Part shown: positions 4,371 through 64,000 of the stretch, one piece after another
Layout of the letters: every line of letters begins with the position of its first letter
Position numbering within the stretch: the stretch's first letter is position 1
NCBI RefSeq assembly: GCF_001908725.1
Contig: NZ_CP018725.1
Location: 744,001-808,000, forward strand
Direction: 5' to 3'
Source: Xanthomonas vesicatoria ATCC 35937
GTDB lineage: Bacteria; Pseudomonadota; Gammaproteobacteria; Xanthomonadales; Xanthomonadaceae
DNA length: 64,000 nt
Made by a program: the position numbers and the translations under genes
The notes under the pieces: generated by a model
Database searches by the model: none
The model's input: the letters and a program-made list of their open reading frames with translations, nothing else
Told to the model about the DNA's origin: nothing

Positions 4371-5879
4371 TCAACGCGTCTCTGGTGGCGCCTCGCTCCA
4401 ACCCAGCCCCAGACTCTTCTGCAGCGCGACGTAGTTGACCAGCAGTTGCAATTGCGCCTGCGCGGCGGCGTCCTGCGCGGACAGTTGCTGTCGCTGTACA
4501 TCGAGCAGATCGATCGACGAGGTTGCGCCGGCATCGCGGCGCTGCTGCATCAGGCCAGCCGAGCGCGTGGCCGAGGCTTCGGCTTGGCGCGCGACCACCA
4601 ATTGCTTGCGCGCCGAACCGAAGCGCGACAACGCGGAATTTGCATCCTGCAGCGCCACCAGCACCGCGCCTTCGTAGGCCGCCACGCGGCCGGCGTTGCC
4701 GGCACGCGCCTGCTCCACCTGCGCGCGGGTCTTGCCGAAATCGAAGATCGACCAGCGCAGCATCGGCACCGCCAGGGTGGTCAGCGCGTCGGAGTTGAAG
4801 TCGCTGGGCGAGCCGGCCACCCAGCTCAGGCCGCCGAGCAAGGTCACCTGTGGGAAATAGCCATTCAAGGCCTCGCCGATCTGCGCGCTGGACGCAGCCA
4901 GCTCGCGCTCGGCCTTGCGCACGTCGGGGCGGCGGCGGATCAACGCGACGGCATCGTCTACACGCACGTCGGTGGGCAACATCGGCAGCGGCCGCACCGC
5001 CGCCAGCTGCGCGTCCAGCGCGCCGGGTTCGCGCCCGACCATCAAGGCAAGCTGGTCCAACGCTTCCTGCAATTGCATCTCAAGCGGCAAGCGCTGCGCT
5101 TGCTGTTGCTGTACCTGGGTGGCGATCTGTTCGACCTGCAGGTCCGACGCGGCACCCTGCGCACGGCGTTGCTGCACCAGCTGCAACGACTGGCGGATCT
5201 TGTCCAGGTTGGCATCGGCAATGCCCAGCCGCGCCTGCAACCCGCGATAGTTGAGATACACCTGCCCCACTTCGGCGGCGAGCTGCACCTGCGCGTCGGC
5301 CAGTTCGGCTTCGGAAGCCTGCGCTTGCGCCAACGCCCCCTCGGCGGCGCGACGACGGCGGCCGAAGAAATCCAGTTCCCAGCTGGCATCGAAACCGGCG
5401 CTGTAGATTTGGGTCTTGTCCAGATCCAACGCCTGATCGCCGGTGGCCGGCGGTTGACCGGGCTGGCCCTCCTGCAGCCCGCCCAGCGTATCAACGATGG
5501 TCTGCGGCGGCTCGGCATAGGCGTACAGCGCGCTCGCATTGAGCTTGGGCAAGCGCTCGGCGCGGCGTTGCCGGGCCAGTGCGCGATTGGCGCGCAGACG
5601 GGCTTGCGCAGCGCGCAGGTTCGGGCTGTCTGCCAGTGCCTGGGTCACTAGCTGGGTGAGCTGCGGGTCGTTCAGTTGCTCCCACCAATGGTTCAACGGC
5701 GCGGCCGCAACCACCTGCGCGCCGCTGGCACGATGCAGCGTGGGTGCCTGCATGGCCGCATCGGCCACCGGCGGAGCTTTGGTGTAGTTGGGGCCGAGCA
5801 TGCAGCCGCCAAGCAACACGGCGCTCAACGCCGCCGCCAGTGGCATGCGCATCGGGCGCAGGTAATCAGTGCATTGCAA
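4371..5879 (-). CDS. Outer-membrane efflux lipoprotein, NodT/OprM family
   Basis: This is the outer-membrane channel of a tripartite drug efflux pump. The 502-residue product has a lipobox LLGGC and the typical post-cysteine 'MLGPNYTKAPP'. Two repeated outer-membrane-factor domains follow; the second contains 'RRRPDVRKAERELAASSAQIGEA' and 'WSIFDFGKTRAQVEQARA'. The start is uncertain. A TTG at the given position has a purine-rich GGGGG upstream, while an ATG nine codons later gives a shorter signal peptide. Its first codons overlap the end of emrB. It is the third gene of an emrA-emrB-outer-membrane-factor operon. Confidence 0.9.
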   Translation of the reverse strand: MQCTDYLRPMRMPLAAALSAVLLGGCMLGPNYTKAPPVADAAMQAPTLHRASGAQVVAAAPLNHWWEQLNDPQLTQLVTQALADSPNLRAAQARLRANRALARQRRAERLPKLNASALYAYAEPPQTIVDTLGGLQEGQPGQPPATGDQALDLDKTQIYSAGFDASWELDFFGRRRRAAEGALAQAQASEAELADAQVQLAAEVGQVYLNYRGLQARLGIADANLDKIRQSLQLVQQRRAQGAASDLQVEQIATQVQQQQAQRLPLEMQLQEALDQLALMVGREPGALDAQLAAVRPLPMLPTDVRVDDAVALIRRRPDVRKAERELAASSAQIGEALNGYFPQVTLLGGLSWVAGSPSDFNSDALTTLAVPMLRWSIFDFGKTRAQVEQARAGNAGRVAAYEGAVLVALQDANSALSRFGSARKQLVVARQAEASATRSAGLMQQRRDAGATSSIDLLDVQRQQLSAQDAAAQAQLQLLVNYVALQKSLGLGWSEAPPETR

Positions 5880-7452: not shown

Positions 7453-8636
7453 TGCGCGCGCTCCTGCTCCTGCACGCGGTCGGATTCTTTTTCGGCACGC
7501 TGCTTGGCGTCCTTGGCCGAGCGCGTGTCCACCGTCACTTCCACCGACATGCCCGGCACCAGCACCTTGCGAGCCTCCTCGCCGGCCAGCACGCGAATGC
7601 GTACCGGCACGCGCTGCACCACCTTGGTGAAGTTGCCGGTGGCGTTTTCCGGCGGCAACAGCGCGAACTGCGAGCCGGTACCGGGGGACAGGCTTTCGAC
7701 CTTGCCATGCAGCTTCACGCCGGACAGCGCATCGACCTCGATCTCGGCCGGCTGGCCCGGACGCATCAGGCCAACCTGGGTTTCCTTGAAGTTGGCGATG
7801 AGGTACAGCGATTCCTGCGGTACGATGGTCATGGTGCGGGTGCCGGCGGCCAGAAACTGCCCTACCTGCACGGTCTTGTCGCCGACACGGCCGTGGATGC
7901 GGCTGGTCAGACGGGTGTCTTCCACGGCGATGCTGGCCTGATCTGCATCGGCAGTGGCCTGCTTCACCCCTGCTTGAGCCTGCTCCAGCTGCGCCGTGCT
8001 GGCCTGGATCTGACTCTCCGCCGCCTTGGCCTGTGCCTGGGCGGCGTCGTACTGGGCGCGGGCGCGGGCCAGATCGTGCTGCAGGCTTTCCTGGTGTTCA
8101 TGGGTGTCGGCGCCGGAAGCCGCCAACGGCGCGAAGCGCTTCACTTCGGCCTGGGCGAACTTGAGGCTGGCAGCAGCGGCAGTGACCTGGGTACGTGCCT
8201 GCACCAGCGACGATTCCTGCGCCGACACATTGGCGGTAGCGGCGGCGATATCGGCCTGGCGCGCGGCAATCGCAGCCTCGGCCTGTTGCAGCGTGGCCTG
8301 ATAGGTGCGGTCGTCGATCTGCAGCAGTGGCTGGCCGGCGTCCACGATCTGGTTGTCGCCCACCATCACCTTGGTCACATAGCCGCTGACACGCGGCGCC
8401 ACCGCCACCGAATCGGCCTGCAGATAGGCGTTGTTGGTGTCCTGCATGTAGCGGCCCTTGATGAGGTAATAGCCCAGCCAGACCACCAGCAGGACCAGCA
8501 CCAGCACGCCCACCAGGATCAGCGTCCACTTGACCTTGGGATTCTTCAACGGCGACGGCTTCTGTTCCTGGTCGTCGTGCGCGTCCGCAGCCTGGCTGCG
8601 GCCATCGTTGGACTGGCGGTCTTCTTGGTTGCTCAA
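7449..8636 (-). CDS. emrA: Efflux pump membrane-fusion protein EmrA (HlyD family)
   Basis: This is the periplasmic adaptor of the EmrAB pump, about 395 residues. It has a short cytoplasmic tail, one membrane anchor 'WTLILVGVLVLVLLVVWLGYYLI', and a biotinyl-lipoyl-like half 'VAPRVSGYVTKVMVGDNQIVDAGQPLLQID'. An Ala/Gln-rich coiled coil and the beta-barrel part with 'PGQPAEIEVDAL' follow. I prefer the TTG start (LSNQEDRQ), because AGGA lies 8 bases upstream; an ATG 14 codons further up lacks a ribosome site. First gene of the efflux operon, and no dedicated regulator is adjacent. Confidence 0.9.
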   Translation of the reverse strand: MSNQEDRQSNDGRSQAADAHDDQEQKPSPLKNPKVKWTLILVGVLVLVLLVVWLGYYLIKGRYMQDTNNAYLQADSVAVAPRVSGYVTKVMVGDNQIVDAGQPLLQIDDRTYQATLQQAEAAIAARQADIAAATANVSAQESSLVQARTQVTAAAASLKFAQAEVKRFAPLAASGADTHEHQESLQHDLARARAQYDAAQAQAKAAESQIQASTAQLEQAQAGVKQATADADQASIAVEDTRLTSRIHGRVGDKTVQVGQFLAAGTRTMTIVPQESLYLIANFKETQVGLMRPGQPAEIEVDALSGVKLHGKVESLSPGTGSQFALLPPENATGNFTKVVQRVPVRIRVLAGEEARKVLVPGMSVEVTVDTRSAKDAKQRAEKESDRVQEQERAQ

Positions 8637-8966: not shown

Positions 8967-10082
8967 TCAGCGGCCGGTCTTGATCTCGGTCCACAGCCGC
9001 GTGTACAGGCGATCAACCTCCGGGGGATTGATCGCATAGGTGAACATCTTGGCGGTCACTTCCGGCGGCGGGTAGATGGTGGGGTCGTTGCGGATCGCCG
9101 CATCCACCAATGGCGTGGCGGTGCGCACCGGGTTGGCGTAATGAATGAAGTTGCTGTTGGACGCGGCCACCTCCGGCTTCAACAGGTAGTTGATGAAGGC
9201 GTAGGCGTTTTCAGGATGCTTGGCGTCCTTGGGGATGGCCAGCATGTCGAACCATTGCGGTGCGCCTTCCTTCGGAATGGCGTAAGCCACCTTGACGTTG
9301 TTGCCGGCCTCCTTGGCACGGTCGCGCGCCTGGATGATGTCGCCCGACCAGCCCACCGCCAGGCAGGTATTGCCGTTGGCCAGGGATGTGACGTACTGGC
9401 TGGAGTGGAAGTTCTGCACGTACGGGCGGATGCTCTTGATCAGCCCGGCCGCCTTCTCGATCTCGGCCGGCACACTGCTATGCGGGTCCAGCCCCAGATA
9501 GTTCAGCGCGATCGGGATCATGTCCGATGGCGTATCCAGAATGGTGACGCCGCAGTCCTTGAGCTTGGACAGGTTCTCCGGCTTGAACACCAGATCCCAG
9601 CTGTTGGCGACATCGGTGCTGCCGAAGATCGCCTTGAGCTTGTCCACGTTGTAGCCGATGCCGGTGGTGCCGATCATGTACGGCACGCCATACGCATTGT
9701 TGGGGTCCTGCGCGGCGATGCGGCGCATGACGTCCGGGTCCAGATTGGCCAGATTCGGGATCTTGCTTTTGTCCAGTGGCAGAAACACACCGGCCTGGAT
9801 CTGCCGGCCGAAGAAGTTGAGTGTGGGCACCACGACGTCATAGTCGCTGCCGCCGGCGAGCAGCTTGGTTTCCACCATCTCGTCGCTGTCGAACACATCG
9901 TAGGTGACCTTGATACCGGTGCTCTTTTCGAACGCGGGGATCGTGTCTTCGGCGATGTAGTCGGAGTAGTTGTAGACGTTCAGCAGCTTGGCCTGCGCAT
10001 CGGCCTTGCCCGGCGCGCCATTGCCGCCACAGCCGGACAACAGAGTGAGGGACAGGGTCAGGGCGAGCAGTCGCAGCGTCAT
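8967..10082 (-). CDS. potF: Putrescine-binding protein PotF
   Basis: This is the solute-binding component of the polyamine importer, 371 residues. A signal peptide ends in LLSGC with the lipidated cysteine at residue 18. The mature domain starts 'LLNVYNYSDYIAEDTIPAFEKSTGIKV' and contains 'GSDYDVVVPTLNFFGRQIQAG', both hallmarks of PotD/PotF. Further on are 'AVGWSGDIIQARDRAKEAG' and the C-terminal 'ALYTRLWTEIK'-like end. It sits just downstream of spuC. Its permease and ATPase genes are separated from it by the emrAB operon. Confidence 0.95.
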   Translation of the reverse strand: MTLRLLALTLSLTLLSGCGGNGAPGKADAQAKLLNVYNYSDYIAEDTIPAFEKSTGIKVTYDVFDSDEMVETKLLAGGSDYDVVVPTLNFFGRQIQAGVFLPLDKSKIPNLANLDPDVMRRIAAQDPNNAYGVPYMIGTTGIGYNVDKLKAIFGSTDVANSWDLVFKPENLSKLKDCGVTILDTPSDMIPIALNYLGLDPHSSVPAEIEKAAGLIKSIRPYVQNFHSSQYVTSLANGNTCLAVGWSGDIIQARDRAKEAGNNVKVAYAIPKEGAPQWFDMLAIPKDAKHPENAYAFINYLLKPEVAASNSNFIHYANPVRTATPLVDAAIRNDPTIYPPPEVTAKMFTYAINPPEVDRLYTRLWTEIKTGR

Positions 10083-59664: not shown

Positions 59665-60037
59665 GCCGTAGAGACGCTGTGCGCGTTGCGCGCATGCTTG
59701 TCGAGCACTATTGCCTGAAGTGAGTGGCGGGTGCGTTGCATCTGACTTCAGTGCAACGCATTGCGTCGACTCGGTTGACTTGGTCATTTTCCGGATGTGG
59801 CCGACGAGTTGGATGAGCCGCGTCAGTGCGCAATCGCACGGAATGAGGCGTTATCGGCCCACCTGGTCGCGCAAGCCAGTCACTGGACACGCAGGATCAC
59901 GCGACAGCGGATGCCGAAGCTGCAATGACCCACCACTGCCTAACGCCAGAATTAAGCCGCGCCGCGACGCGAGTTCGGCTTGAATGAATTGTTATGCGCC
60001 CGCTTGACGGGCACCATGACCTTTGCGACAGGCATGC
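59665..60037. other. End of the cassette array and gene-free junction to oprB
   Basis: It holds the last attC of the cassette array at its right part, followed (to the left) by 270 bases of chromosomal sequence up to oprB with no gene. No terminator hairpin was seen after oprB. Confidence 0.6.
59938..59997 (-). repeat. Integron attC site A (distal end of the array)
   Basis: On the minus strand it begins GCATAAC, has complementary arms CAAGCCGAA... and ...GCGGCTTAATTC around a GC-rich loop, and ends in the core site GTTAGGC (GTTRRRY consensus). 60 bases, imperfect palindrome. The next sequence is unrelated chromosome, so this is the array's distal end. Confidence 0.88.
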
Positions 60038-60448
60038 TTAGCACTTGAAGTAGACAACTGCTGACAAGCGGTCTTTGTAGGCCTTTGCCAGGCTACGAAA
60101 TCTCTTTGGCCAACTTTCATCAATTTCAGTTGAAGTGTATGTCGAGCCAGACTGATGCCATTCGCCATCTGGCGCTACAAACACGTACGGCTCATCATTG
60201 AACAGGAGAGCGGCAACTGGAACGATAACGAGGTTGCTGCCAGAAAGAGCCTGCGGAAAGTCAATTGCAAGATATCCCACGCGGGAGTACCACCCTTTAT
60301 CAACGACAGAATAGAAGGCGAGAGGAAAGCATTCATCCTGCTCGGGTTGATGCGGCGCCAAGATCGAATGAACGAAGTTAACTACTGCCACTTCGTCTGC
60401 GGGATCAATGGCGCCGGGTAACACAACATTGCCGTGGAAGTGTCCCAA
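60038..60448 (-). CDS. Cassette protein A, unknown function
   Basis: A 136-residue soluble protein, acidic, with alternating hydrophobic segments ('SNLVIVPVAALLFNDEPYVFVAPDGEW'). No signal or membrane segment, no recognised domain. It starts at a TTG with GAGGAA 9 bases upstream and is followed by attC A, so it forms the last gene cassette. Base composition is lower in GC than the chromosome around it, as expected for captured cassettes. Confidence 0.75.
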   Translation of the reverse strand: MGHFHGNVVLPGAIDPADEVAVVNFVHSILAPHQPEQDECFPLAFYSVVDKGWYSRVGYLAIDFPQALSGSNLVIVPVAALLFNDEPYVFVAPDGEWHQSGSTYTSTEIDESWPKRFRSLAKAYKDRLSAVVYFKC

Positions 60449-60470
60449 AGCTGCGCGTTCCTCAAAGGGG

Positions 60471-60551
60471 GCCTAGCGCTCGCGGAGTGCGAGGCACGGA
60501 GGGTATCCACAAGCAGAGCGTGTGGACGTCGGGTTGACCAACCAGTTAGGC
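60471..60551 (-). repeat. Integron attC site B (long form, altered core)
   Basis: On the minus strand it runs from GCCTAAC through a hairpin with TCCACA/TGTGGA arms to GCTAGGC. The final core should read GTTAGGC, so the second base of the recombination triplet has changed. It is about 80 bases and unlike the other attC sites in internal sequence, so this cassette has a different origin. Confidence 0.75.
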
Positions 60552-60583
60552 TTAGGGGTTGAAGCACTGATTTACTGGCATGT

Positions 60584-61405
60584 TTAATTTAAATGCCCTT
60601 GAAGAGTGTTGTGATCAATGTTGCCGTTGTTTGTTAGATATGCGAAGTCAGGTGCTAAGAATGCGCGCTGAACTTGACCTTCGCCAAATAAAAGAGCTGT
60701 GATTCTCCGTGTATCTCGCGTTGGCTCTGCAATATATGGCACAAAAAGAACGTCATCATCGAATTTATATGCAGAGTATGGAACTCGTGTTTTTGAGAGA
60801 TATATGTCAACTTTAGTCAAGTCCGTTTTATTGAGCGCCTTCAGCAGTTCTTTCAGTGCATCCTTGAGTTTAGTTGAGCGCGTTCCTGGTTTTTCATTGA
60901 ATTCGGCATCGAATCTGCCCATCAATTCATCTTCTCGAAAATCAGAAAGAACCAATTTAAGACGCACGCCATCTTTGGAAAGGAAGTCACGCAAAATTGC
61001 CAATCGATCCACCAAAAGCGGGCGTGCCGAAATGGCCACTATGGTGATTGTCTTTGAATTTCCAAACAATTTCGCCCATGGCACCTCATCGAATTTCCAG
61101 CAATCCGTTAGGCCTGATATTAGAGTGGATTCTTTAAGGTGAAGGCGTTCGCTAACGGAATCAATGGCTTCTTTCCATATTTTTGTTCTCAATAGAAAAT
61201 CGAGGGCACCGACCGTCAGAAGAAGCGAACCGACTTCACGAAATGGGCCGGCGGTTTTATTCCAAGGTTCTGCCAAGTTCTGCACCCAACTTGCAAGCAG
61301 GAAAATTATTAGTGATAAAACTGAAAACACCAATGCCACAACTAAAATCGCCAAACCCGATCCGCTGGTGAGAAAGTCATGCAGAGATTTTTTGGTAGTA
61401 AGCAT
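60584..61405 (-). CDS. Cassette protein B, membrane-anchored with cytoplasmic C-terminal domain
   Basis: A 273-residue protein with a strong N-terminal membrane segment (about 17-40) and a possible second one (about 58-72). A soluble alpha/beta domain follows with 'TITIVAISARPLLVDRLAILRDFLSKDGVRLKLVLSDF', 'KVDIYLSKTRVPYSAYKFDDDVLFVPYIAEP'. The layout, with repeated hydrophobic strands and a 'Y(K/R)FDD.(L/M)...P' turn, recalls phospholipase D-like sensor/effector domains without the HKD catalytic motif. That relation is a guess from pattern, not proven. It shares a fused cassette with the gene upstream. Confidence 0.72.
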   Translation of the reverse strand: MLTTKKSLHDFLTSGSGLAILVVALVFSVLSLIIFLLASWVQNLAEPWNKTAGPFREVGSLLLTVGALDFLLRTKIWKEAIDSVSERLHLKESTLISGLTDCWKFDEVPWAKLFGNSKTITIVAISARPLLVDRLAILRDFLSKDGVRLKLVLSDFREDELMGRFDAEFNEKPGTRSTKLKDALKELLKALNKTDLTKVDIYLSKTRVPYSAYKFDDDVLFVPYIAEPTRDTRRITALLFGEGQVQRAFLAPDFAYLTNNGNIDHNTLQGHLN

Positions 61406-61473
61406 ATATGTGTCCAGTTTTATTTGGTGGCGTACCTTGTGGCTAGCTTATTGACAAGGTTAGTTCGCTAATA

Positions 61474-61500
61474 GCTTAACGCCTGAATGAATTGTTAGGC
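61474..61500 (-). repeat. Collapsed attC site C (about 27 bases)
   Basis: On the minus strand it reads GCCTAACAATTCATTCAGGCG then TTAAGC. Both outer core sites are present (GCCTAAC, GTTAAGC), but the whole central stem-loop of 30 or more bases seen in the other sites is gone. The two halves are joined at an ATTCA that occurs in both arms of intact sites. It should not fold into a recombinogenic hairpin. Confidence 0.78.
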
Positions 61501-62126
61501 CACCACCCGGAGTGCATGAATTGATCGACTATGACCTTTGCCCGCTGAGTGTACTCGCTGTATGTCTGCCCCAAATTGGCCCTAATGATGTCGTAGTTGC
61601 CTTCTGGTAGTTGTACGAAGGTCATGCGATAGAACTCGCGTGACTGATCCACGATTGAGTCAAGAAGGGATATGTTGCGCCTAATCTCAAGAAGACTTGT
61701 CTGATGGCGCGCATCAAACGTCTGGAGTGCGGAGACTCTATAATCCAGTAGCGGAACTGCGTACTTCTGCAAAAGAGTCGCTTTTGCGTCGGCAGTTTGC
61801 GACGCGCCAGCAATCTGGTCATCGGGAAACGCCAGAAGCTGATTTGTCATGGCGAGAAACTTTGCAGATCTCTCATTGCCAGGGTCCGCCTCTAGCTTGC
61901 CTTTTTGCCAGTTAAGAAACGCTCTGTCGATTTGACCAGCTAAGCCACTTGTTCGGAAGCAAGCGGCAAGAATTATGGATGAGAACTCCCTAAGTTCATT
62001 TTCTATTGCCTCGCGACCAAGAGCTGTTTCTCTCTTTGACTTTATGGCATCTACAATTGCGGGACTGAGCGTGCCGAGCAACCAGCCGAGAAGCAACATT
62101 AGCACAGAATTTAGTTGGTCTTCCAT
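61476..62126 (-). CDS. Cassette protein C, single-pass membrane protein of unknown function
   Basis: 216 residues from the ATG with a GGAG ribosome site: a membrane segment at about 5-25 ('VLMLLLGWLLGTLSPAIVDAI'), then a long helical cytoplasmic part with many Gln, Leu and Arg residues and no recognised motif. The stop codon lies inside the collapsed attC, so the last residues (PNNSFRR) are encoded by attC sequence. It is upstream of gene B in what is now one two-gene cassette. Confidence 0.75.
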   Translation of the reverse strand: MEDQLNSVLMLLLGWLLGTLSPAIVDAIKSKRETALGREAIENELREFSSIILAACFRTSGLAGQIDRAFLNWQKGKLEADPGNERSAKFLAMTNQLLAFPDDQIAGASQTADAKATLLQKYAVPLLDYRVSALQTFDARHQTSLLEIRRNISLLDSIVDQSREFYRMTFVQLPEGNYDIIRANLGQTYSEYTQRAKVIVDQFMHSGWWPNNSFRR

Positions 62127-62140
62127 GATATCTCCTAGCG

Positions 62141-62200
62141 GCCTAACACCTGAATTAAGCTGAGCCGCGAAGCGGCTTCGGCTTGAATGAACTGTTAGCT
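62141..62200 (-). repeat. Integron attC site D
   Basis: On the minus strand it runs from AGCTAAC through GTTCATTCAAGCCGAAGCCG and the loop to CTTAATTCAGGTGTTAGGC. 60 bases with complementary halves and an intact GTTAGGC core. The stop codon of gene D is in its first core site. Confidence 0.88.
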
Positions 62201-62683
62201 GCGTGCCGGATTGACGGCAAACAGCAATTGAGAAACCTCGCTGTGAAGGAATTCTTTGTCCTTGATGCCAAGTGACTTTCGAATTTCCATGCAAAAGCGG
62301 GTGAAAGCCAGAATCTCTTGCTCTGTCTCAAGCGTGGCGCCAGTTGCCCAAAACGTGGCTAGACGCCTCACGACATGCTCCTCACCGAAGATGCAGATGC
62401 GGGCCTTTGCATGAGTTAACCGAGCTAGCTGCTCAATCTCTCGCTGCTTATTTCCCACACGCTGAGCAGCAACAAGTTCCGAGACGGCCTCAAGAAAGTC
62501 AATGTACGCAGCATTCCGTGACTCAAGGAGGTGCTTCTCCTGATGTGACTGGCGTGCGAAGTGATTCTGCAGGAGCGCGCCAACCACTACGCCGAAGATG
62601 GAAAGCAGTGCCGTTATTGCGGTCGCCAAATTCTTCTCCTTAGCTGCTAAAGCCTCAGTTAAGCCGGCTCGCTGCGCGGCCAC
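62195..62683 (-). CDS. Cassette protein D, single-pass membrane protein of unknown function
   Basis: 162 residues from a GTG, or 144 from a TTG 18 codons later that has a much better AAGGAG ribosome site; the true start may be the latter. One membrane helix ('ATAITALLSIFGVVVGALLQ') is followed by a helical domain with 'LESRNAAYIDFLEAVSELVAAQR' and 'LTHAKARICIFGEEHVVRRLATFW'. Proteins of this general pattern are common among cassette and genomic-island hypotheticals. Function unknown. Confidence 0.72.
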   Translation of the reverse strand: MAAQRAGLTEALAAKEKNLATAITALLSIFGVVVGALLQNHFARQSHQEKHLLESRNAAYIDFLEAVSELVAAQRVGNKQREIEQLARLTHAKARICIFGEEHVVRRLATFWATGATLETEQEILAFTRFCMEIRKSLGIKDKEFLHSEVSQLLFAVNPARS

Positions 62684-62695
62684 GGCTGAGTGACA

Positions 62696-62753
62696 ATCTT
62701 ACGGCGCTCTGCCAAGGCTGCGAAGCGGGCTCGGCTTGAATAAATTGTTAGAT
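62696..62753 (-). repeat. Integron attC site E (altered core)
   Basis: On the minus strand it starts ATCTAAC, continues with AATTTATTCAAGCCGAGCCC and ends in CGCCGTAAGAT. The expected final GTTRRRY triplet reads GTA. The arms are less complementary than in sites A, D and F, so it looks degenerate. The stop of gene E lies in its first core. Confidence 0.75.
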
Positions 62754-63536
62754 TTGCTGCCAAGGATCAAGGAGCTCGCTGTGCGTGAGTGAGATTTCAA
62801 GGTCTGATGCTCTCGAGGCGCCGATGGGCAGTCTTTGAGGCATATACATTGCGACAAAGCACTTCGGGAAGTTCGTTACAGGTGGAGCGAGCTTGTGAAA
62901 GTTGTAGATGTCGAAGCAAGCGATGCAGAAATCCCCACCATTGTCGAAGCGTTCCCAAGTGCACGCGTATTTGAATTTGTCATTGTAGGCGCGCACAACG
63001 TCAGCCGACTTTGAGAGTAGAGTTTTTCGAATGATCCCAGAGAACGTAAACGTCTGCTCAAGCGGAAGAATGGGAGTTTTTCTCTCCAGCTCGGCTTCCG
63101 GCAGTGGAATGTGGAATTTGCTCTGGGTGCTGACAGGAAGAAACTCTTTGTATAGAAGAGCATGCATTCCGCGAACAATGCGAGCAGCCATTGGTGCAAG
63201 AGGAAGATTTGATACAGATGCCGCTTGGCTGTTCCCGAAGCTGACAAACTCGGTTTCAAAGCGCGAGGTAAAAGCTTGGTCTTGGCTTTTCTTTCTTGTG
63301 TGAAGCGCGTCTGTGATTATCCCGACAAGTTCGTCAGCCTCCTTCCAACTGTTGTTACAGCTTTCGTGCGTAGGAAGAATGATGGGGTAATTCTCGCGGT
63401 CGCTGGGGGCGAAGAAGCCTTTCGGCGGGCAATGATCTCGATTGAATGAGCTTGAGTCGTCTAACAGTTGTCCGCACAAATAGCAGAAATCTGGGGTTCC
63501 ATGGCTCCTGAGCTGCTTTTGCGATGAAATTTCCAA
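62748..63536 (-). CDS. Cassette protein E, HNH-like nuclease
   Basis: A 262-residue soluble protein with an N-terminal zinc-type HNH pattern: Cys18 and Cys21 (CYLCG), Asp34-His35 (NRDHCPPKGFF), and His57, Cys60, Asn61 (THESCNNSW). The rest is an unrecognised helical domain. DH-PPK-FF followed by CN is a known arrangement of HNH-type endonuclease families. It starts at TTG, 5 bases past attC F. A DNase role (defence or toxin) is inferred from the motif. Confidence 0.78.
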   Translation of the reverse strand: MEISSQKQLRSHGTPDFCYLCGQLLDDSSSFNRDHCPPKGFFAPSDRENYPIILPTHESCNNSWKEADELVGIITDALHTRKKSQDQAFTSRFETEFVSFGNSQAASVSNLPLAPMAARIVRGMHALLYKEFLPVSTQSKFHIPLPEAELERKTPILPLEQTFTFSGIIRKTLLSKSADVVRAYNDKFKYACTWERFDNGGDFCIACFDIYNFHKLAPPVTNFPKCFVAMYMPQRLPIGASRASDLEISLTHSELLDPWQQI

Positions 63537-63540
63537 GCAA

Positions 63541-63608
63541 ACCTAACGCCAGGGCTAAGCCGCGGACCTGCCGGAGGCGGGGCTATCGGCTTGAGCCCTT
63601 TGTTGGGC
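63541..63608 (-). repeat. Integron attC site F
   Basis: On the minus strand it runs from GCCCAAC through AAAGGGCTCAAGCCG and the loop to CGGCTTAGCCCTGGCGTTAGGT. 68 bases, strong complementary arms and an intact core. The coding sequence of gene F runs into it. Confidence 0.87.
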
Positions 63609-63998
63609 ATCAGCTACATACGCCTGCATTTCGTTCAGCTGATCCATGAACTGAATGAAGTGCTCCTCCGATATGGTGAGCAGAGAGCCTACCGATAGTT
63701 GCCAAGGCAGAACTTTCAGTGGCTTAACTCCAACAACTGATTTGTTGTGCACAATCCAGTTACGAACATGCCGGATATCTCCCATGAGATCGGCTCTAAT
63801 AGCCGAAGCATCTACTCCCATTTCTTTTGCTAAGCGATGTCTATAAAGCTCATCCCACTCTGAGTAGAGCGATACAATGAGCGACTTGGCGAGTGTGTCT
63901 GTGAATAGTCCACCCTTGCTTGAGAAATCAACCAAATCCTTCATCTTGATTCGGGCTTGGTGCTTTCCTTGCTCAGGGGCGGTGTTGCCTACATACAT
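63555..63998 (-). CDS. Cassette protein F, HEPN-like (possibly incomplete at the window edge)
   Basis: 147 residues from an ATG two bases from the window end; the gene may begin further on, outside. It is all-helical, with 'IVSLYSEWDELYRHRLAKEM' and the RNase-type motif R79-NWIV-H84 followed by N, typical of HEPN domains (Rx4-6H). The last 15 residues (QRAQADSPASGRSAA) are encoded by the attC itself. It could be a toxin or anti-phage RNase. No antitoxin partner is visible in the window. Confidence 0.68.
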   Translation of the reverse strand: MYVGNTAPEQGKHQARIKMKDLVDFSSKGGLFTDTLAKSLIVSLYSEWDELYRHRLAKEMGVDASAIRADLMGDIRHVRNWIVHNKSVVGVKPLKVLPWQLSVGSLLTISEEHFIQFMDQLNEMQAYVADAQQRAQADSPASGRSAA

Positions 63999-64000
63999 GG

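Follow-up and report, generated by a model that had tools for sequence, protein, structure and literature searches.

A probable second integron platform beside secF in Xanthomonas, with a retained attI and a dead integrase gene

A 64,000-nucleotide stretch of the Xanthomonas vesicatoria ATCC 35937 genome (contig NZ_CP018725.1, C1:744001-808000; hereafter the window) contains one end of a gene-cassette array which lies between an oprB-type porin gene and secF. The genome comprises 5.35 Mb in three contigs. The array head, beyond the right edge of the window and next to secF, carries an attI site, a Pc-like site and a remnant of an integron integrase gene (intI). The secF locus is probably a second chromosomal integron platform that is integrase-dead, has kept attI and is served in trans by the IntI encoded beside ilvD. 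The same deletion scar is present in most of the aligned intI remnants; the arrays behind it can differ wholesale; cassettes common to both loci are found, some with edges exactly at GTT. Catalysis in trans, promoter function and any benefit of the arrangement are put forward conditionally, from sequence comparison.

The array head beside secF and its attC sites

Features beyond the window are placed on L023, a 20-kb stretch of the same genome (window position = L023 position + 58999); coordinates are collected in Table 1. At the secF edge of the array, a 318-bp stretch of attI, leader and 5' intI matches the integron beside ilvD at 70% identity. The ilvD integron is 2.53 Mb away and has an array of its own of about 10 kb; its integrase is intact (C1:3337214-3338158, 507 bits to TIGR02249). 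No TIGR02249 match was found at the secF locus of this genome. The initial annotation, made from the window sequence, expected intI and attI to the right. The attI is indeed at the head, but the adjacent intI is only a remnant and the intact copy is at ilvD; the locus is thus not a complete integron. With at least two attC sites and no neighbouring integron integrase gene, it falls under the definition of a cluster of attC sites lacking an integron integrase (CALIN). It does not fit a CALIN formed at an off-target attG, the head of which would be free of attI and intI sequence.

The Pc-like site faces the cassettes. The motif type TTC[AC]CA-N17-GATACT, directed toward the cassettes, is present in 34 of 40 heads compared, using a pattern broadened in the light of the sequences. 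Three of the six misses are class-II heads which by eye read TTCCCT-N17-GATACT; in the others the -10 element is changed (X. cissicola), the site is altered (G022) or the stretch is lost (G021). A promoter scan of L023:900-10080 found four promoter-like sites against 5.2 expected, which fits the earlier statement that no promoters are apparent between the cassettes. An integron promoter had also been proposed beyond the right edge; a Pc-like site is located there, but the consensus scan is not above chance.

The array was described at first without site coordinates, with an attC site following each of six genes. One site was sought after each open reading frame (ORF), and the search moved from a looser scan to nhmmer and then to covariance models. 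Model R1 was built from 28 sites, 11 of them from the secF array itself; model R2 was trained exclusively on 18 sites of the ilvD array of this genome. On the minus strand of L023, R2 reports 14 sites, of which ten score 66.4-85.5 bits and the other four 17.2-25.0 bits; off the array it has no match at E up to 1. Five of the 14 fall inside the window. Four of these score higher with R2 than anything off the array in the 64-kb window (at most 18.2 bits); the fifth, at 62645-62753, is at noise level with R2 (17.2 bits over 62696-62753, below that off-array match). Neither model reports a site at 60449-60583, between the first two ORFs. The expectation of a site after every gene is borne out by four clear sites, is doubtful for a fifth and is not confirmed between these two ORFs.

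Recognition as attC, with RYYYAAC and GTTRRRY ends and a stem, comes from the independent model R2; folding energy alone is not decisive. Compared with shuffles, single-strand folding energy does not separate the five sites (z of -0.54, -0.57, -1.95, -1.38 and -1.29) from a stretch without a model match (-2.02). A strict RYYYAAC...GTTRRRY pattern combined with a high stem score returned no sites. Rfam at its gathering threshold returned nothing in the window, L023 or L026. Among the best 150 of 5747 first-look candidates, R1 finds two large attC clusters genome-wide, a group of three sites and a lone site. The group (G000:C1:3075533-3076770) and the lone site (3677979) are away from both arrays.

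Rightward, the array runs for a further 4.6 kb to C1:812.56k, ending before secF. The reading of the window as the distal end of a chromosomal integron cassette array is borne out, the distal end being the porin side.

The integrase remnant across the genus and cassettes of the two loci

The comparison set contained 35 genus genomes, including this one. Typing of the secF locus covered 40 stretches, 80 named SecF loci and 13 further SecF loci; the named loci are the best 80 of 547 confirmed stretches, come partly from the same genomes and include some contigs that stop soon after secF. Remnant DNA matches 29 of the 35 genomes if ilvD copies and short matches are counted. It is found beside secF in 21, this genome included. 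G009 is a probable further case, with the remnant on a separate contig and the secF contig stopping 298 bp from secF. In 12 genomes secF has no remnant within the up to 1.5 kb examined, G020 retaining a 35-bp trace; G029 gave no SecF match.

The SecF proteins of this genome and Xanthomonas dyei share up to 99% identity. Fifteen named Xanthomonas loci have SecF 93-99% identical, and nine of them carry the remnant: X. dyei, X. hortorum pv. cynarae, X. cannabis, X. cucurbitae, X. floridensis, X. melonis, X. cissicola, X. phaseoli and strain Leaf131. It was not found in X. arboricola (three records), X. euroxanthea, LMG 31884 or an X. axonopodis record, nor beside secF in any of the other 65 named loci. 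Besides weak 19-20-nt matches, the remnant-free named spacers match only around the secF terminator. One further SecF, 72% identical to the Xanthomonas protein, is on a contig titled Bacillus subtilis (L137), an assembly that is probably contaminated.

The remnants have a scar in common, at which intI codons ~1-98 are fused to codons ~249-257. Of 20 aligned secF rows, 17 show the junction. Comparison with intact intI by blastn recovered both segments in four of five rows tested (not in G013), and two have an ilvD-type upstream half. Several genomes, including that of the window, have lost more sequence between the scar ends; in 22 remnant genomes, tblastn found no intI similarity past about codon 100. 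An intact intI next to secF was found neither in the 33 genus genomes with a visible secF neighbourhood nor in the 80 named loci.

Two other integrase loci were seen in the genus. L104 (G011:C6:396000-415500) has a third integron-integrase fragment with an attI-like head and neither ilvD nor secF in the stretch. L092 (G014) has intI and an array with no ilvD in the stretch; the available text of Colombi et al. (2025, PMC12444791) reports the same for X. cucurbitae.

Cassettes behind the scar can differ completely between genomes. G006 and G007 are 98.7% identical in secF, 95.9% in the porin and 97.8% in ilvD. Their secF arrays hold 16 and 14 cassette types, none in common (ORF-less family excluded); their ilvD arrays hold 18 and 24, of which five are common to both. 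For secF arrays seen over the whole span to the porin (contig-limited arrays being excluded), a full-length ilvD intI tends to go with more attC sites: 14, 3, 16 and 20, against 4, 3, 0, 3, 1, 2, 2, 8 and 3 in genomes without one (one-sided exact p 0.017, n=13, kinship uncorrected).

Some cassettes are common to the two loci. Both secF and ilvD members occur in five of 17 multi-member cassette clusters, or six of 18 with the ORF-less family. A 456-bp cassette of the G022 secF array matches one of the G031 ilvD array at 100%, and at 98.95% over 573 bp with the attC arms; the core genes of these genomes are 91.4% (secF) and 91.8% (ilvD) identical. Nine cassette pairs were inspected, seven of them secF-ilvD between genomes, one secF-secF and one within the window's own genome. 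Identity opens exactly at GTT in three (G006 ilvD 1/G033 secF 8; G006 ilvD 2/G034 secF 1; own secF 4/own ilvD 1) and closes within the next GTTRRRY in six.

The docking site is better conserved than the dead gene beside it. Among 15 class-I secF heads, pairwise identity averages 0.90 for attI and 0.86 for the Pc-like site, then drops to 0.77 for the remaining leader and 0.70 for the dead intI codons; leaving out the two rows with most damage gives 0.91, 0.86, 0.77 and 0.77. The corresponding values in nine class-I ilvD-type heads, one of which (from X. cucurbitae) is not beside ilvD, are 0.90, 0.74, 0.81 and 0.81.

Explanations of the secF platform and the content of its cassettes

These features suggest the following history. 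Early in the history of the genus, the secF intI would have shrunk to the fused codons ~1-98 and ~249-257, with more decay to follow. The platform retains the parts for receiving and expressing cassettes (attI, Pc-like promoter and attC) and not the recombinase. The ilvD IntI, 2.5 Mb off, would insert and remove secF cassettes in trans by recombination at the GTT cores of attC and attI; a single enzyme would then serve both docking stations. An extended form of this proposal has about an even chance of being right: the genus would have a split integron, with one integrase gene and two separated attI/Pc stations, the second of which is permanently integrase-less, receives cassettes in trans and swaps head sequence with the first, giving two independently ordered expression arrays.

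A number of observations weigh against service in trans from ilvD. The scar junction is absent from G014, G027 and G034. The array-size comparison counts 14 sites in the window's own genome, one of them at E 0.1 (R1), nhmmer having supplied the counts for the other arrays; G032 has a full-length intI but only three secF sites, G033 has a partial intI but eight, and in G026, G028 and G031, which are placed in the group without full-length intI, fragments still score over the family cut-off. The six heads that lack the Pc-like pattern are all from secF, and the pattern had been widened once the sequences were known. Conservation of attI could result in part from gene conversion with ilvD as the source. 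Some alignment edges of the inspected cassettes lie in the upstream attC arm or continue into a similar neighbour. Finally, neither G022 nor G031 has a full-length intI at present; the movement of their common cassette must therefore predate the losses or have used another route.

This last pair is also consistent with arrival of cassettes at secF by homologous recombination, with attC arrays, attI and the intI remnant as homology, instead of through IntI. Further support for such a route comes from a tree of 40 heads. Twelve secF heads form one group (92/96, branch not starred) and six further secF heads lie without clear placement among class-I ilvD heads; the secF heads of G034, X. dyei and G033 group with three ilvD heads (six in all, 99/99). 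A single secF clade is rejected (approximately unbiased test, p 3.9e-5), in a tree with one long branch, G031. As three secF heads group with ilvD heads and a single secF clade is rejected, tracts have probably been exchanged between the two loci; as X. dyei and G033 keep the secF scar and yet group with ilvD heads, the upstream half of each has probably been replaced from ilvD. For the cassettes themselves, however, homologous recombination is unlikely to be the main explanation: identity begins at the GTT crossover in three of the nine pairs, and single cassettes are common to arrays amid unrelated neighbours.

The initial annotation suggested a different meaning for the array, namely phage defence. 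The window contains six minus-strand ORFs from 60038 to the right edge, with a GC content of 0.43-0.53 against 0.65 in window bases 1-59900; the six same-strand genes described earlier, four of them as low in GC, are thus present. A defence island would be in line with Vibrio cassette arrays, which are rich in defence genes (cited in PMC12444791, as far as its available text goes), and with HNH-, HEPN- and membrane-type proteins judged by eye. However, the HNH-like and HEPN-like labels rest on motifs seen by eye and find no family match above cut-off. In Pfam, PADLOC and NCBIfam, the window's cassette proteins yield nothing that passes a curated cut-off or improves on E 0.003, and none matches a known defence family in these collections; in PADLOC the best matches are at E 0.003-0.03, for two of ten proteins. 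For the genus, the available text of Colombi et al. (PMC12444791) gives 20 orthologous cassette genes flagged by DefenseFinder (1.8%). A defence island is improbable, and the sequence of the six window genes calls for caution in any hope of phage defence.

The 262-aa protein has its best match to solved structures at E 0.19. In a wider search of 299 genomes of the order, its homologs occur in two other genomes (one 78% identical, one at E 9e-4), and a homolog of the 196-aa protein occurs in one other (E 3e-4). A relative of the 262-aa gene with 75% DNA identity comes from another family of the order, as does the 78% identical homolog. The DNA match opens at the cassette edge (GTTAGGT/GTGAGGT) and closes in an apparent decayed attC arm; movement of this gene as a cassette is therefore probable. 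The 136-aa and 273-aa ORFs, which have no attC found between them, may share one two-gene cassette, or one cassette may have a decayed site. Beyond the window, one cassette encodes a DUF7674 protein (E 5e-22) and another, at L023:8794-9120, a barstar-family protein (E 1e-15).

A cassette of ~280 bp without a supported reading frame is present in 30 copies in 13 genomes, at both loci, and makes up 14 of 89 secF and 14 of 130 ilvD cassettes. Protein coding can be rejected, as variability is equal in the three phases (0.132-0.134 in 13 copies of exactly 280 bp); conserved RNA structure is unsupported (z of -0.16 and -0.08, 40 column shuffles each).

To the left, the array is flanked by genes for a fructose-type phosphotransferase system (PTS) protein, a PfkB-family kinase, a PTS IIB-containing protein and an OprB porin; the fructose operon had been correctly placed alongside.

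The secF integron might also have had a working intI until recently, lost independently in each species, so that no supply in trans is needed. Different further deletions in different species point in this direction. The same junction in 17 of 20 aligned rows, and the lack of any intact intI beside secF in 33 genus genomes and 80 named loci (partly repeats), make it a poor explanation, with little probability left to it. Least probable is a plain CALIN, in which cassettes were inserted at an off-target attG near secF and no separate platform exists: clusters next to secF have been described as CALINs that lack a proximal intI (Colombi et al. 2025, PMC12444791, available text) and TIGR02249 has no match at the locus, but attI and a 5' intI remnant stand at the array head, and the remnant is beside secF in 21 of 35 genus genomes.

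Table 1. Features of the secF array. Coordinates are window positions unless marked L023; strand is given where assigned.
Feature	Position	Strand	Scores and remarks
attC site 1, last of array, canonical, 60 bp	59938..59997	-	R1 73.8 bits; R2 66.4 bits, E 3e-17
Cassette ORF, 136 aa	60038..60448	-	no family
Cassette ORF, 273 aa	60584..61405	-	weak matches below cut-off: CARF_TM E 0.003, DUF554 E 0.009
Miniature attC, 27 nt	61474..61500	-	R2 25.0 bits, E 1e-4; R1 27.6 bits; 33 central model positions missing (central stem deleted)
Cassette ORF	61476..62126	-	no family; start set at internal ATG (MEDQL...); longer frame 61476-62294 has 0 matches
Canonical attC	62141..62200	-	R1 82.4 bits; R2 84.7 bits, E 1e-22; fold z -1.95
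Cassette ORF, at most 162 aa	62195..62683	-	start uncertain
Atypical attC-like site, 109 bp	62645..62753	-	R1 47.8 bits; R2 17.2 bits
Cassette ORF, 262 aa	62748..63536	-	HNH-like motif by eye
attC, 68 bp	63541..63608	-	R1 46.6 bits; R2 23.8 bits, E 2.4e-4
Cassette ORF, 196 aa, past window edge	63555..64000 (L023:4556-5146)	-	HEPN-like motif by eye
~280-bp cassette, own genome	L023:7654-7933, 7993-8272		related stretch ~5201-5480; four places in L026
attI	L023 9560-9598		by homology to ilvD attI; crossover G/TTAGAC
Pc-like site	L023 9602-9630		faces cassettes
intI remnant	L023 about 9727-9929
secF	L023 10056-11024

Relation to known integrons

In Xanthomonas, intI is located at ilvD, and CALINs beside lamG and/or secF are reported in five species (Colombi et al. 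2025, PMC12444791, available text). The same text explains CALINs by ancestral integron activity and states that they can be mobilised in trans. The words 'remnant', 'pseudogene' and 'duplicat' are absent from its main text; 'attI' or 'truncated' appears in ten places there, never to describe such a feature at secF. The available part of a paper on secretion systems (PMC12448352) has nothing on the secF platform, and no other publication evidently concerned with it was found in the literature searched, most subscription journals being outside that search.

The array as first described is ordinary. The added part, an attI platform that has outlived its own integrase across many species and has cassettes in common with the live platform, is a modest and testable variant. 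A known pattern, the recurrence of CALINs beside secF in Xanthomonas, is turned into a testable history in which a second integron lost its enzyme and kept its docking site. The locus offers a natural case for asking if selection acts on attI after its own integrase is gone, and raises the question of whether arrays called CALINs in surveys are often served in trans.

Three known systems can be compared, each as far as the available text of its source allows. The secF platform resembles the ilvD chromosomal integron (PMC12444791) in attI, leader, attC type, cassette families and an intI convergent with the core gene; it differs in having only a scarred intI, no complete one having been seen at secF. 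It shares with the secF CALIN of Colombi et al. (2025) the locus and the attC clusters without an intI gene, but here attI, a Pc-like site and an intI fossil are present; by ancestry, the secF array is therefore a truncated integron. Class 2 integrons with pseudogene integrases (PMC2426708) likewise combine attI and an array with a dead intI. In contrast to these, the secF platform could obtain the enzyme from another locus of its genome, and the dead allele is common to several species.

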